A DNA stretch of 64,000 nt, from positions 310,001 through 374,000 of the forward strand of contig CP048685.1 of the NCBI GenBank assembly GCA_015698285.1, in the 5' to 3' direction. The translations under genes and the position numbers were made by a program. The stretch's first letter is position 1; every line of letters starts with the position of its first letter. This DNA comes from Candidatus Nitronauta litoralis (GTDB lineage Bacteria > Nitrospinota > Nitrospinia > Nitrospinales > Nitrospinaceae). This document shows positions 7,500 to 58,613 of the stretch, piece after piece. Below the pieces are notes generated by a model. The model ran no database searches. It worked only from the letters and a program-made list of their open reading frames with translations, and had not been told where the DNA came from.

Positions 7500-7547
7500 T
7501 TTTTTGACCTTTTGTCTTCTCTTAATTTCAACCTTTAACATACTAGA

Positions 7548-8174
7548 TTAATGTTTTTGGTCTCTTAAATAGGGCAATCCAAGGGTTAGACCATCTGGGG
7601 AATACTTTTTCCAAAAATGTTCAAATTCATCAGAAAACGGTGCTCGTAGGGGCAGTTCTATTTTAGAAAAACCTGAAATAGAACAAGCTGCTTTTGGCAT
7701 CTCTAAAAGAATCTTTGTTCCACGGTATTTTTTATGAATCCAAAAAAAATGAATCCCCCATGGTCGCTTCATATCGGAAAATTTTTCAGTAGGAAATTTG
7801 CTTACTGGAATGTTTTCCCATTTTCCTCTCCAGTAAGATTCCATTCGAATTAAAACTATAATGGACACAGCCCTCCCATTAAGTATTCCTAACAGCGCAG
7901 CCATATCGTTTACTCGCATATCGTAAACTCCACCATCAAACTCCGTCTCCAAATTCCCCATACTTGATACTCTTTTCGTTCTTTCTTGCAAAAATAAAGG
8001 AGCGTTTTTTGAGACAAAAACAATGCGAAAATTAGTTCGACTATAAAAAATATTCTCTTTCAAAGGCGTTTCCCAATGGAGACCATTTATCACTTCATCA
8101 TGATACTTTTGATGAAAAATTTTGTCTTCAGATGAATTTTTGCTAAAACCCAATCCGCAATCTGCACATCGCAT
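7548..8174 (-). CDS. ESCO/Eco1-like zinc-finger protein with GNAT-like C-terminus
   Basis: The 208-residue product begins with a zinc finger, C3-x2-C6-x14-H21-x3-H25, followed by the pattern NGLHW. This order and spacing is that of the eukaryotic cohesin acetyltransferases Eco1/ESCO (for example the finger of yeast Eco1). The C-terminal part also lines up with ESCO: RIVFVSKN near 50, NGRAVSIIV near 99, GIHFFWIHKKYRG near 140 (ESCO: GISRIWV...RR.GIA) and APFSDEFEHFWKKY near 178 (ESCO: AFSDPTPDG). The acetyl-CoA loop is degenerate, with KYRGTK in place of RxxGxA/G, so activity is uncertain. I chose ATG 8174 because GAGGA sits seven bases upstream and the finger begins at once; a start at 8240 would add 22 residues. 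It is AT-rich and isolated, which suggests acquisition. Confidence 0.7.
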   Translation of the reverse strand: MRCADCGLGFSKNSSEDKIFHQKYHDEVINGLHWETPLKENIFYSRTNFRIVFVSKNAPLFLQERTKRVSSMGNLETEFDGGVYDMRVNDMAALLGILNGRAVSIIVLIRMESYWRGKWENIPVSKFPTEKFSDMKRPWGIHFFWIHKKYRGTKILLEMPKAACSISGFSKIELPLRAPFSDEFEHFWKKYSPDGLTLGLPYLRDQKH

Positions 8175-8270
8175 TCTTAATTCCTCGATTATTTTTATTG
8201 TACTTGCATAATAGATTTTCAAATATTCCAAACAAATCACATCAGTATATATTTGATTTGATCATAAAGA

Positions 8271-8399
8271 TTATTTACAAGGAGTGAACTGTTTTATATT
8301 GCACCCCTCAATATGCTTGGTATTCCGTGTCGCAATAGCATCACCCAGTTTTTTTGCTATGGATGCGGTCATGATATCAACTTGATGATTTCGAGTTTC
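8271..8399 (-). pseudogene. 3' remnant of a VapC/FitB-type PIN toxin
   Basis: Reading the minus strand in the frame that ends at TAA 8273-8271 gives the last 42 codons of a PIN-domain ribonuclease, with VDIMTASIAKKLGDAIATRN followed by TKHIEG. This is the standard C-terminus of VapC/FitB toxins (conserved Asp, then ATRN...F/HxG). The N-terminal two thirds, with the first catalytic acidic residues, is absent. The frame closes at a stop at 8414-8412, and the coding DNA upstream is the antitoxin in another frame. The toxin is therefore dead, and an internal deletion has joined the antitoxin 3' end to the toxin 3' end. Confidence 0.75.
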
Positions 8400-8610
8400 G
8401 TTTGGGCAATTCTAACTCTACGCCATGCTTTGCACCGAAATATTGTTCGGCAAGGCCCAGAATATTCAAAGATTCGGCACATTCTGACGATGAGGCTTTT
8501 TGCAAAACTTGACGGACATAAGCTTCAAGTGAAACCCCCGCCTGTGCCGCCTGGGCTTGTAGTCTCTTCCTGGTGTTTTCAGGTAAATCGCGAATAGTGA
8601 TATTGGCCAA
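8377..8610 (-). CDS. FitA/VapB-type ribbon-helix-helix antitoxin (orphan)
   Basis: A 77-residue protein starting with ANITIRDLPENTRKRLQAQA, the DNA-binding ribbon-helix-helix of FitA antitoxins, followed by GVSLEAYVRQVL. The C-terminal toxin-binding segment includes LAEQYFGAKHGVELELPKR, as in intact FitA proteins. The last few residues (NSKSSS) look like a frame change at a deletion junction, because the same DNA read in another frame continues into the PIN toxin remnant at 8271-8399. It may still bind its operator and affect related systems elsewhere. The sequence AAGGAG lies just upstream of ATG 8610. Confidence 0.85.
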   Translation of the reverse strand: MANITIRDLPENTRKRLQAQAAQAGVSLEAYVRQVLQKASSSECAESLNILGLAEQYFGAKHGVELELPKRNSKSSS

Positions 8611-8708
8611 AAAAAATCTCCTTAATAAATTATTGTATTTAATAATATCATTGTTGTCGGTTTACCAAGAGCTCACCTGATCCCTATAAATAATGCAAGA
8701 AATTTGGA

Positions 8709-8738
8709 AGCCCCCCTTCGACAGGCTCAGGGTGACAT
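8709..8738. repeat. Dispersed repeat family A, copy 2
   Basis: Thirty bases identical to 192-221. It opens a cluster of unrelated short repeats in the gap 8611-9027: this copy, family B at 8757-8795, and the palindromic element at 8805-8933. I see no gene in that gap. Confidence 0.75.
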
Positions 8739-8756
8739 ATTGGGCGCTAAACTGTA

Positions 8757-8795
8757 ATTCTGAACGGAATGTAATGAAGTGAAGAATCTAGCCTT
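8757..8795. repeat. Dispersed repeat family B copy
   Basis: The stretch with ATTCTGAACGGAATG and GAAGAATCTAGCC matches the outer arms of the chimeric repeat at 35006-35060 (TGTCATTCTGAAC and GCGAAGAATCTCGCC). In both places the text CCTTTGCTT follows. It is a variant of a widespread bacterial repeat with the form GTCATTCTGA...GAAGAATCT. Confidence 0.6.
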
Positions 8796-8804
8796 TGCTT
8801 TTTG

Positions 8805-8933
8805 CTCCCCCTTCTCCGAAGGGGGCTGGGAGGCATCTTCCACCAGTCTTTCTTCAAGAGTTACTTCATGGTTTTGTGCCGGGCATAGAATCGATCAAGC
8901 CCCCTGCTTCGCGTCCCCCTTCGGAGAAGGGGG
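8805..8933. repeat. MITE-like element with inverted ends
   Basis: The left end (8805-8826, CCCCCTTCTCCGAAGGGGG core) and right end (8915-8933, the same 19 bases inverted) flank about 90 bases that also carry matching GGGGGCT / AGCCCCC arms. The whole is a 129-bp imperfect inverted repeat without coding capacity. A single end-type copy occurs at 58443-58464. Non-autonomous mobility is inferred from structure only; no target-site duplication was identified. Confidence 0.55.
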
Positions 8934-8980
8934 AATATAATGGTTCCCCTTTCATTCCAAAAAGCCCACCCCGATACAAA

Positions 8981-9012
8981 AAAAGCCCGCAAGCCGAAGC
9001 CTGCGGGCTTTT
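8981..9012 (-). terminator. Terminator of the DUF3386 gene
   Basis: An 11-bp perfect stem (8981-8991 with 9002-9012, sequence AAAAGCCCGCA) and a 10-base loop lie 16 bases after the DUF3386 stop. On the minus strand it is followed by a run of T (complement of the A tract 8978-8984). Confidence 0.85.
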
Positions 9013-9027
9013 GAATTCTAAAACCAA

Positions 9028-55386: not shown

Positions 55387-56082
55387 TCAGTACCGTCCAA
55401 CGTTCTCACCCGGAACCGCTGCTATCGGCATGCCCTGCACATGCTTGAGAACCTGCAGTCCCATGGAAGTACGCTGGACGGTGAAGGCCATCCCACCCAG
55501 AAGCGTATTAAACGTATTGCCCACTTTGATCCCGTAACGCTGCAGCATTTTCTGTTCGCCCTGACTGAGTCCGATTGCTCCGGATGGGTTGTTTCCTGTC
55601 AGGTTGTTTGCGATCTTTTTCTGGGCATCCAGACTGAACACCCATTCGAAATCCAGATGGCGATGGTCATGCCCTGGGTGCGCTGCCCTCATTGATGATT
55701 TGATCACCTGATGGGTCGAACTCATGGGCAGATTCCATTGAGGGGCATCATCATGGCCCAGAGTCGGGCCTTCAATATGAAGGCCGGAGGACGTTCGGGT
55801 GACCTCAATCATTTGATCACCGACGCGGGTTTTAAAACGATTGCCTACCTGGATTCCATATTCCTTGAGAGTTTTCTGCTCAAAACCTGAAAGACCAACC
55901 GTTTCGTTTCCTTCATTCATACCGCGCTGGATCCTGTCGGCAACCTTCTGGTCAAAAGTCCAGCCGACCGGGATGCTGCGGTGATCGTGACCGGTTCCCT
56001 GGTGAGCCAGAGCATTTCCTGCATTGAGGAAAGAAGCGATTGCGAGAGCGCAGATGATTTTGGTGATCTTTCGGGTTGTCAT
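55387..56082 (-). CDS. Secreted protein with a duplicated GHDH-headed domain
   Basis: I do not recognise the family. After a signal peptide (cut near GNALA, about residue 26) the mature part consists of two tandem copies of one domain of about 75 residues, each introduced by GHDHR. Copy 1 has GWTFDQKVADRIQR, GLSGFEQKTLKEYGIQVGNR and VTRTSSGLHI. Copy 2 has EWVFSLDAQKKIANNL, GLSQGEQKMLQRYGIKVGNT and VQRTSMGLQV. The His/Asp headers could bind metal. ATG 56082 has AAGGAG eight bases upstream; the longer start at 56142 is not needed. Its promoter (56161-56216) carries two palindromes, and the CarH-like regulator lies 210 bases downstream. Confidence 0.8.
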   Translation of the reverse strand: MTTRKITKIICALAIASFLNAGNALAHQGTGHDHRSIPVGWTFDQKVADRIQRGMNEGNETVGLSGFEQKTLKEYGIQVGNRFKTRVGDQMIEVTRTSSGLHIEGPTLGHDDAPQWNLPMSSTHQVIKSSMRAAHPGHDHRHLDFEWVFSLDAQKKIANNLTGNNPSGAIGLSQGEQKMLQRYGIKVGNTFNTLLGGMAFTVQRTSMGLQVLKHVQGMPIAAVPGENVGRY

Positions 56083-56160
56083 GGCGTTTCTCCTTAAGTT
56101 TCGATTTTTCTTTTTATTTTTTAAAACTGGATGATTGAGCAATTCCAGAAATCAATTCGT

Positions 56161-56216
56161 TGTCTAGAATCTATATTAGACTATCTTCCAATTATGTCAA
56201 ACTAATTTTTTAGACA
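56161..56216 (-). promoter_or_regulatory. Sigma70-type promoter overlapped by two 34-bp-spaced palindromes
   Basis: On the minus strand a perfect -35 TTGACA (56200-56195) and a -10 TAATAT (56178-56173) are 16 bases apart. Two imperfect inverted repeats overlap them: TGTCTA (56161-56166) with TAGACTA (56177-56183), and TGTCAA (56195-56200) with TAGACA (56211-56216). Matching half sites are exactly 34 bases apart. The position fits an operator that blocks RNA polymerase. The CarH-like regulator encoded downstream is the natural candidate to bind here. The rest of the gap 56083-56490 is AT-rich with no gene seen. Confidence 0.65.
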
Positions 56217-56490
56217 AAATAAAAGAAAAAACATAACTATTTATTTTTAAATGGGTTAAATGATAAAAATATTTTAAGATTTTATATTTTCAGGGGGTTA
56301 GGGTGCGCCAAATTCGGGGGTTTTGAAGGACTTTCTCGTTTAGAGCCAGGGATTCGCGTCCCAAATTATGGTCCCTAAAGAACTGAAATCTGTATAATTC
56401 GGTATATCAATGCTTGAAAACCATGATTATTTCTTTGAGTTTTCATTTCGCGGAAATTAAAGCTGAAAGATTCGTTAGCCAAGGACTTTT

Positions 56491-57960
56491 ATGAAAGAAG
56501 ATTTAACCATCGAAGAAATCAAGGAGCTATGCGATGCCGATCCAGAAAATGTTGAATTGAAAGAAAAGCTCTTCTTGGAACTTTTCAACGGAGAAAGAGA
56601 TAAGGATGAATTAACTTCCTATCTAAAAAAAATACGTAACCTCTATGAATTAGATAAAAACAACACCACTATTAGAGAACTTTTTGCGATCGGATTGAGG
56701 CTTGCCCTGGAGGCTGAAGAACCTGAAGAACCAGAAAATCTATTAAATGAGATCCAAAGCCTCTATGAATTAGACGAGAAAAATATTTTTATTAGAACTC
56801 AACTCGCATTGGCATTAGCCAGTTATACTTTAGAAACAGACCTGGAATTAACCAAAGAGGTTGTTGAAAAAATAAAATCTCTTTATGAAAAAGATCAGGA
56901 AAATTCAACTATCAGGGAAGCATATGCGTATGGACTGGTGAATATCACCTGGGAAACAAATCAAGATGCAATATTATCCAATTCAAAAAAAATTGAGACA
57001 CTCTACAATAAAGAACCTGATAATCACACAATTAGAGAATACTTAGCCCAGGCTTTCGCAAATGGCTTTATAGATTTCAACCAGAATTCATCCTTAGTAT
57101 TTTTTGAAAAAATCCAGAATCTTTATGAAGTTGACCAAAATAATGTAGGAATAAGAAGAATTCTTGCAGATGTGATTTCCAAAGCAACGGTTTCATGCGA
57201 CAGCCAAAGTCAATTTATGCTAATTGAAAAATTACAATCCTTGTTCGAAGTAGACCCGGAAAATGATGAGATCAAAGAGTCTTTTTCAATTGCCCTTTAC
57301 AATGCTTCATTCGACTATAATGGTAAAGAGACCATTATCTTTATTGATAAAATTCAACGCCTGCATGAGAGCGCCCCAGACAATAACTCCATCAAAGAAT
57401 TGCTGGCTGGCTGCCTGTATAATGCCAGTGTATATGCTGACATAGAAACAGTGACAGAATTTATTTCCAGACTTCAACAGCTTTTCGATTCGGGACCGGA
57501 AAATTTCACCATTGGCGAATATTTAGCAAAAAGTCTCTACAATTTAAGCGTGGATGCAGACCTGGAATTAAAACAACAAATTTTAAGAAAAGTAGAAAAC
57601 CTCTATGAAAGGGATCTTGATGGTCAAATGGGTGGGATGGCGTTAGCAGGTTGTCTATATGAATTTACTCGAGCTTCTGGTTCACTAGATTTCCAAGAAC
57701 TTATAATACGTCTATTAAACCTTCATGAGACAGAACCAGAAGATGACCAAATCAGGGAGCTATTAGCGAAAAGCCTAGCCACCTACCTTTATTATATTTA
57801 TGGAGAGCAAAGGACAACATATCTTGAAAAACTTAAAGTATTAAAGAGGAATTGGCCTGACGATAGTTACTGGCAAGACATTACAAATTATTTTGCCAGC
57901 AAGGAAGATAAAAGCTGGAAGTTTCCCGCTGATTTTTTTCGTGGACAAATAAAAAACTAA
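56491..57960 (+). CDS. Protein of ten 40-residue helical tandem repeats
   Basis: I do not recognise a family. After about 46 residues the whole 489-residue chain is made of roughly ten repeats, each exactly 40 residues in the copies I counted. Each begins KIxxLYExDxxNxxIRExLA and continues xALxNaxxexd plus a variable amphipathic stretch. The pattern predicts a two- or three-helix unit, related in style to TPR or HEAT, forming a solenoid for protein binding. No signal peptide or enzyme domain is seen. The gene is strongly AT-rich compared with its surroundings and stands alone, which suggests acquisition. The start ATG 56491 lacks a strong ribosome site. Confidence 0.8.
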   Translation: MKEDLTIEEIKELCDADPENVELKEKLFLELFNGERDKDELTSYLKKIRNLYELDKNNTTIRELFAIGLRLALEAEEPEEPENLLNEIQSLYELDEKNIFIRTQLALALASYTLETDLELTKEVVEKIKSLYEKDQENSTIREAYAYGLVNITWETNQDAILSNSKKIETLYNKEPDNHTIREYLAQAFANGFIDFNQNSSLVFFEKIQNLYEVDQNNVGIRRILADVISKATVSCDSQSQFMLIEKLQSLFEVDPENDEIKESFSIALYNASFDYNGKETIIFIDKIQRLHESAPDNNSIKELLAGCLYNASVYADIETVTEFISRLQQLFDSGPENFTIGEYLAKSLYNLSVDADLELKQQILRKVENLYERDLDGQMGGMALAGCLYEFTRASGSLDFQELIIRLLNLHETEPEDDQIRELLAKSLATYLYYIYGEQRTTYLEKLKVLKRNWPDDSYWQDITNYFASKEDKSWKFPADFFRGQIKN

Positions 57961-58004
57961 AGATCGCCCAAAACTCCCACCTGCTTTTACAGGAATAACT
58001 TTTC

Positions 58005-58403: not shown

Positions 58404-58442
58404 TGGAAATTTACCTTTGGTTTTGACCTTTGGTTAATCTTT

Positions 58443-58464
58443 TCTCCCCCTTCTCCGAAGGGGG
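58443..58464. repeat. Palindromic repeat, end-type copy
   Basis: Twenty-two bases with the core CCCCCTTCTCCGAAGGGGG, identical to the left end of the element at 8805-8933. It is followed by CGGGGGGCTTCTTCC, similar to the inside of that element. It lies in the 210-base gap 58404-58613, which holds no gene. Confidence 0.6.
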
Positions 58465-58613
58465 CCGGGGGGCTTCTTCCTTCTGATTTTTACCTGGATA
58501 AAAATAACAGGCTCAAGCTAACTGTACTTTAAAATTACCCCGCTTCGCATACTTCTAAAAAAAGCGTTATCATCTCACCCTCCCCTTCAACAGGCACAGA
58601 AAAAAGCTGCTGA

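Follow-up and report, generated by a model that had tools for sequence, protein, structure and literature searches.

A mobile zinc finger-GNAT gene of Candidatus Nitronauta litoralis probably encodes a diverged bacterial relative of the Eco1/ESCO cohesin acetyltransferases

In eukaryotes, cohesin is locked onto DNA by Eco1/ESCO, an enzyme that acetylates Smc3. Eco1/ESCO proteins have a PIP box on the N-terminal side of their zinc finger (PMC10656103), and the catalytic residues of MmEsco2 are E491, S527, S566, and D567 (PMC7300003). In xEco2, a central hairpin located between beta4 and beta5 has been called unique to cohesin acetyltransferases, and W623 is involved in substrate binding (Chao et al., PMC5349539). 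Cohesin is regarded as eukaryote-specific, and the complex, like its acetylation, is taken to be an invention of eukaryotes (PMC12188315). No paper on bacterial relatives of Eco1/ESCO was found among open-licence papers. We analyzed a stretch of 64,000 nucleotides of the genome of Candidatus Nitronauta litoralis (CP048685.1, positions 310,001 to 374,000; referred to as the window), in which a sequence-only reading had reported a protein with the full domain order of Eco1/ESCO. This 208-residue finger-GNAT product of the minus strand is referred to as the window protein.

The open reading frame was confirmed, with 208 codons plus a stop running from position 8174 down to 7548 (Table 1). The ATG start was preferred over a GTG at position 8240, because the Shine-Dalgarno-like sequence lies ahead of the ATG. 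The protein starts two residues ahead of the first cysteine of the finger and has neither an N-terminal extension nor a PIP box. All the motifs previously read in it were present, namely, C3-x2-C6-x14-H21-x3-H25, NGLHW, RIVFVSKN, NGRAVSIIV, GIHFFWIHKKYRG, and APFSDEFEHF. Judged on sequence, their likeness to the ESCO motifs exceeds chance.

Table 1. Features of the finger-GNAT locus (positions in the window)
Feature	Position	Strand	Basis
CDS of the finger-GNAT protein (208 aa plus stop)	7548..8174	-	Open frame with Shine-Dalgarno; PF13878 match; 93.7 bits on the family profile
Shine-Dalgarno-like GAGGA, 7 nt 5' of the ATG	8182..8186	-	Read from the sequence
ESCO-type C2H2 zinc finger, C3-x2-C6-x14-H21-x3-H25	8100..8168	-	PF13878; finger DNA pattern
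GNAT domain, residues 34-208	7551..8075	-	AlphaFold model; nearest PDB folds all Eco1/ESCO; GNAT-only profile
beta4-beta5 insertion with invariant W119 (xEco2 W623 position), region of the ESCO central beta-hairpin	7758..7844	-	Alignments; PMC5349539
beta5 and acetyl-CoA loop, GIHFFWIHKKY-RGTKIL (altered R-x-x-G-x-A/G)	7707..7757	-	Alignment
C-terminal APFSDEFEHF, Pro aligned with ESCO SDPTPDG and bacterial PFTE-x-G	7614..7643	-	Alignments
Variable cassette between NDP-sugar transferase and conserved 225-aa gene	7500..9027	.	GC 39%
ORF of a FitA-like ribbon-helix-helix antitoxin, located upstream within the cassette, its toxin apparently lost	8377..8610	-	PF22513, 54.9 bits; congener G002 has a homologue at this site

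Searches against Pfam-A matched the window protein to a single family, PF13878 (zf-C2H2_3, "zinc-finger of acetyl-transferase ESCO"), with an E value of 1.2e-5 and a score of 25.5 bits for a cut-off of 27. The genome-wide search with this profile returned the same place at 29.6 bits, above the cut-off, and gave no match besides the window gene in 77 genomes of the phylum. The ESCO acetyltransferase domain profile, PF13880, did not match the window protein at E ≤ 10. Of the two ESCO Pfam profiles by which the assignment was to be checked, the finger profile was thus recovered and the acetyltransferase profile was not. In a single-sequence phmmer search, the sole PDB chains at E < 0.1 were ESCO1 (E = 0.0048; residues 2 to 133) and ESCO2 (E = 0.0089; residues 3 to 107). 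An ad hoc ESCO profile scored the window protein at 39.6 bits, and its GNAT part alone matched that profile marginally, 6 of 20,000 shuffles scoring higher. A profile of four relatives, built without the window protein, scored it at 93.7 bits, the part following the finger scoring 56.2 bits by itself, for a best value of 7.9 in 20,000 shuffles of that part. NCBIfam, PHROGs, and PADLOC gave no match to the window protein.

The relatives were retrieved with a DNA pattern of the finger (Cys, Cys-Gly, Tyr/Phe, Asp/Glu, His, and His at fixed spacing) that did not include the GNAT domain. In the window, the pattern matched the window gene only, with 0 matches in 100 shuffles. Across 257 billion bases of prokaryotic genomes it identified 21 stretches, and viral contigs yielded 6. 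When read, twelve of the genome matches were finger-GNAT proteins, seven were HTH-finger proteins from Bacillota, and the remaining two were of neither kind. Selection by the pattern builds finger similarity, but not GNAT similarity, into the set of relatives, and the repeated occurrence of a GNAT domain behind the finger is therefore independent evidence. Relatives that were of the window protein's type and complete in length were L020 (Armatimonadota; 27% identity with the window protein), L006 (a planctomycete), L029 (a viral contig), and L014 (Sulfuritalea). Further searches yielded L068 (a planctomycete prophage), L069 (a fragment), L086 (a viral contig), and, from a Streptomyces plasmid, a protein whose finger is a variant one. 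A second type, found in Rhizobiales and relatives, has a PF13878 finger followed by a GNAT domain, without the hairpin insertion and with an extra N-terminal domain. PF13878 scores of the relatives ranged from 27.5 to 40 bits, with one at 26.5. L020 cleared the cut-offs of both ESCO profiles (33.2 bits for 27 with PF13878 and 23.2 bits for 22.8 with PF13880), and the L069 fragment cleared that of PF13880 (24.7 bits for 22.8).

The family is rare, with one member in 201 genomes of the Armatimonadota set, two convincing members in 398 genomes of the Sulfuritalea phylum, and three in 392 of the planctomycete phylum, these being rough figures from sets each centered on a known member and in which scoring covered only some of the candidates per genome. 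When plasmids, phages, viral contigs, and 60 related genomes were searched directly with the window protein, no relative emerged; tblastn of the plasmids and phages returned nothing at E ≤ 1. Peptide-pattern scans of viral contigs based on the window protein or on ESCO alignments also returned nothing; one scan alignment, in which two ESCO copies carried altered residues, served solely for searching and underlies none of the conclusions. Candidates L061, L063 to L066, and L070, from the searches of Pseudomonadota and Planctomycetota, resemble GNATs that are generic or have no finger, and were excluded as members. As far as the sequences tell, the finger-GNAT architecture is not confined to eukaryotes and forms a sparse family in scattered bacteria, prophages, and defence islands.

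The same searches revealed other proteins bearing this type of finger. In proteins of Bacillota and viral contigs (L004, L005, L008, L010, L011, L019, L022, L026, L028, L079, L084, L094, and L095), an XRE-type helix-turn-helix precedes an ESCO-type finger and a different C-terminal domain; representatives clear or approach the PF13878 cut-off. A 133-residue protein with an ESCO-type finger and no GNAT domain (L062:1471-1869; PF13878, 29.0 bits) is encoded beside a phage capsid gene. Small proteins of viral contigs (L080, L081, L083, L087, L090, L099, and L100; open frames of 38 to 71 residues) end in a finger like CAICGMIYVYWETDDLEYHTQQHE and may form a family of phage proteins with a single ESCO-like finger. 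The finger of the Streptomyces plasmid GNAT (L036:3674-4453) is of the variant form C-x-CG...H-x3-HH, and a DNA cytosine methyltransferase is encoded two genes away.

Kinship with Eco1/ESCO appears to extend beyond the finger. A profile of the window protein and four relatives, compared to all PDB sequences, matched ESCO2 (E = 9e-19) and ESCO1 (6e-12), both over positions 2 to 197, and the finger-less XEco2 acetyltransferase domain (3.7e-5), the first non-ESCO acetyltransferase appearing at 0.63. With a GNAT-only profile, the matches were ESCO2 (5e-8), XEco2 (6.5e-6), and ESCO1 (0.0052 and 0.047), followed by the next GNAT at 0.19. Omission of the window protein from the GNAT-only profile left ESCO2 (1.1e-6) and XEco2 (1.2e-5) ahead of the next GNAT (0.047), with ESCO1 at 0.68, a value that does not separate it from generic GNATs. 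The GNAT part of L020 alone had XEco2 as its sole PDB match at E ≤ 10.

AlphaFold models, made without templates and from 5 to 6 sequences each, were obtained for the window protein (pLDDT 80, pTM 0.77) and for L020 (pLDDT 88, pTM 0.84). Foldseek comparison with 350,542 PDB chains gave Eco1/ESCO chains for all of the best 12 matches of both models, with E values of 2.8e-11 to 1.2e-6 for the window protein (next match, 2.5e-4) and of 5.6e-12 to 1e-8 for L020 (next match, 5e-6). The gap between the Eco1/ESCO chains and the next GNAT exceeded two orders of magnitude in E value in both searches. A fold search of BFVD returned generic GNATs only. In the main branch of the bacterial family, an insertion is present at beta4-beta5 and contains a tryptophan that is invariant in the aligned members (W119 in the window protein); the L020 model shows long beta4 and beta5 strands and the window protein model a strand at residues 113 to 117 only. 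Thus, the proposed Eco1/ESCO domain order was borne out by the finger match, by the modelled GNAT fold of the C-terminus, whose nearest solved structures are Eco1/ESCO enzymes, and by relatives with the same finger-GNAT order.

These comparisons bear on the possibility that a generic GNAT independently gained an ESCO-like finger, the likeness of its GNAT domain to ESCO resulting from convergence within a huge superfamily. The finger is indeed promiscuous, being also fused to HTH repressors in Bacillota, and L020 scores higher with the generic Acetyltransf_1 profile (26.7 bits) than with Acetyltransf_13 (PF13880; 23.2 bits). However, GNAT-only sequence searches put ESCO2 and XEco2 first, all 12 Eco1/ESCO chains are the top structural matches, and the hairpin insertion carries an invariant tryptophan, making independent gain of the finger decidedly improbable. 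Common ancestry with Eco1/ESCO is the reading that we retain below.

The active site has diverged. In the alignment, E491, S527, S566, and D567 of MmEsco2 correspond to I109, H142, R177, and A178 of the window protein, so that all four catalytic residues are replaced; the catalytic glutamate is retained in L020 and L029 only. The FSD of APFSDEFEHF had been read as a match to the ESCO FSDPT motif, but it is out of register: with the conserved proline aligned, APFSD falls after the catalytic Ser-Asp position, which is occupied by R177-A178, and its assignment as the catalytic pair was rejected. The alteration reported for the acetyl-CoA loop is real; RGTKIL stands in place of R/Q-x-x-G-x-G/A. 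The loop is canonical in L020 (RRRGLA), L006 (RRMGFA), and the Streptomyces protein (RRQGVG). Replacement of Gly by Lys is common to the window protein and ESCO1 (RRKKIA), whereas the Leu in place of the usual Ala or Gly is not. The loop of yeast Eco1, RKLGIA, is only a lead. Loss of the four Esco catalytic residues together with the RGTKIL loop casts doubt on the activity of the window copy, which may be a weak or re-specialised acetyltransferase or may only bind. Since neither a PF13880 match nor the catalytic residues were found in it, the window protein was filed as a related branch and not as an ESCO orthologue.

The gene had been suspected of acquisition because of its AT-rich composition. 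This was supported by a GC content of 36.4%, versus 53.2% in the neighboring gene, by its absence from each of 76 related genomes, and by the same site in congeners, which is empty or holds other cargo. In congener G001, 66 bp separate the conserved genes that flank the site, and in congener G002 a homologous FitA-like antitoxin gene lies at this site beside an unrelated AT-rich orphan of 217 residues (L051:1998-2651, minus strand; no Pfam match). The window gene is therefore cargo in a variable site, which is a hot spot for such insertions, and its horizontal acquisition, apparently recent, was demonstrated computationally. Proximity to smc, which had also been proposed for inspection, was rejected, as the SMC gene of the host, an ordinary bacterial one (G000:C1:1440052), is located 1.12 Mb from the window gene. 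Three further observations were made in the window. The frame MTASIAKKLGDAIATRNTKHIEGCNIKQFTPCK (8263-8376, minus strand), beside the FitA-like antitoxin gene, resembles by reading the C-terminal remnant of a VapC/PIN toxin. Short dispersed repeats link the cassette to distant parts (8709-8741 and 192-224, 33 bp, 97%; 8801-8841 and 58440-58480, 41 bp, 90%). Positions 56001-58000, with a GC content of 0.34 to 0.37 versus approximately 0.49 around, are possibly another acquired island.

The antitoxin gene is on the same strand and in the same cassette as the window gene, as would be expected if the latter encoded a GNAT toxin of the TacT/AtaT type neutralised by its neighbor. We rejected this proposal as hardly credible: G002 has the antitoxin without a finger-GNAT gene, beside a different orphan, FitA-like antitoxins pair with PIN toxins, and relatives of the window gene have no obvious antitoxin neighbor. 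The window copy could instead be degenerating, inactive cargo left in a decayed toxin-antitoxin cassette. The changes at the four catalytic positions and in the acetyl-CoA loop would fit such decay, as would the end branch of the protein (1.85, the longest of the 18-row tree described below), the nearby antitoxin deprived of its toxin, and the restriction of the gene to one genome. Against decay, the 208 codons are intact and preceded by a good Shine-Dalgarno sequence, the finger ligands and core fold residues are retained, and the family in general keeps only some of the catalytic residues, so that different residues may serve. We consider decay unlikely, although it deserves attention, and hold to a diverged member of the mobile family.

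The settings of the relatives are mobile or defence-like, which is a lead drawn from few loci. An AbiJ_NTD4 gene is directly upstream of L020, two TIR genes are near L029, a TIR gene and a serine recombinase gene are near L013, and the Agrobacterium plasmid copy is surrounded by Gabija and a wider defence island. L068 lies between the terminase and portal genes of a prophage, L027 lies near capsid and tape-measure genes, and L006 is beside groEL and isochorismatase genes. At these few loci, the neighbors included no obvious antitoxin and no conserved partner gene. The family might consist of effectors with an anti-phage or counter-defence role, whose target for acetylation during infection would be a replication or chromosome protein of the phage or host, as the AbiJ_NTD4, TIR, serine recombinase, and Gabija neighbors and the prophage head modules around L068 and L027 suggest. 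The small number of loci, the groEL/isochorismatase setting of L006, the lack of a conserved partner, and the attraction of many unrelated cargo genes to defence islands and prophages weigh against this proposal, which we regard as tentative and somewhat unlikely.

An unrooted tree with 18 rows united the four eukaryotic proteins in one clade (99/99); the window protein lay outside it, and its nearest rows were bacterial. A weakly supported split (88/89) placed the eukaryotes together with the window protein, L020, L006, L068, and L029 and apart from L014, the Streptomyces protein, and the Rhizobiales type. The yeast Eco1 row, one of the four, is only a lead, and the conclusions are based on PDB sequences. 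The position of the window protein outside the eukaryotic clade indicates that its gene is no recent copy of a eukaryotic gene; the direction of an ancient transfer is not settled by the tree. The EDK-x2-HQKYH and RGKW spellings of the finger and hairpin do resemble ESCO and yeast Eco1, as a recent transfer of an ECO1/ESCO gene into Candidatus Nitronauta litoralis would predict. Against such a transfer are the score on the bacterial profile, which is 93.7 bits without the window protein versus 39.6 for the ESCO profile, the bacterial nearest rows and the exclusion from the eukaryotic clade, and a gene without intron remnants or the eukaryotic N-terminal extension. It was rejected as exceedingly improbable.

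Together, the computational analyses establish the finger-GNAT order, the ESCO-like fold, and the presence of relatives across several phyla and within prophages or defence islands. We favor, with reasonable but incomplete confidence, the conclusion that the window gene is a diverged bacterial member of a mobile zinc finger-GNAT family sharing common ancestry and architecture with Eco1/ESCO (finger, GNAT core, and central hairpin with its tryptophan). Members of this family are most likely acetyl-CoA-dependent protein lysine acetyltransferases, as the fold, the hairpin, and the canonical loops of the relatives suggest, and the hairpin and C-terminal strand would hold the substrate, as in xEco2. 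The target of the window protein would not be Smc3 or cohesin, because bacteria have none. A family of bacterial and phage proteins that share with Eco1 the finger, the GNAT core, and the substrate-binding hairpin provides a prokaryotic relative for asking about the origin of Eco1 and its role before cohesin, and L020 and L068 are small proteins suited to the biochemistry of finger function. More speculatively, and rather improbably at present, eukaryotic Eco1 may descend from a mobile finger-GNAT acetyltransferase of this family, of bacterial or phage provenance, that was recruited during eukaryogenesis to acetylate cohesin; the bacterial members would then act in conflicts between phage and host by acetylating proteins bound to DNA, SMC-like or other.

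Generic GNATs (RimI/NatA-type, AAC(3), and Hat1) share the core fold with the window protein, although their matches were weaker than those of every ESCO structure in both fold searches. Rhizobiales-type proteins, such as WP_080843353.1 of Agrobacterium, annotated only as "C2H2-type zinc finger protein," have the PF13878 finger followed by a GNAT domain but differ from the window protein by an extra N-terminal domain, the lack of the hairpin insertion, and a shorter C-terminus. The bacterial finger-GNAT proteins (L020, L006, L068, L029, L086, L014, and that of Streptomyces plasmid NZ_CP108606) are similar to the window protein in length, order, and motifs, but several keep the canonical RRxGxA/G loop, and L020 and L029 the catalytic glutamate; among those whose finger is standard, the window copy has diverged furthest. 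Eco1, ESCO1, and ESCO2 (PF13878 plus PF13880; PDB 6sp0, 5t53, 5n1u, 5n1w, 5n22, and 4mxe) differ from the window protein in sequence (20 to 24% identity with the eukaryotic proteins), in having a longer hairpin, and in context, since the window gene is on mobile DNA in a host with SMC and without cohesin. They are nevertheless its nearest counterparts by profile and by fold, with a finger of the same family directly N-terminal of the GNAT domain, a tryptophan at the xEco2 W623 position of the beta4-beta5 insertion, GI ahead of beta5, and the Roberts-syndrome tryptophan (xEco2 W640) kept as W145.
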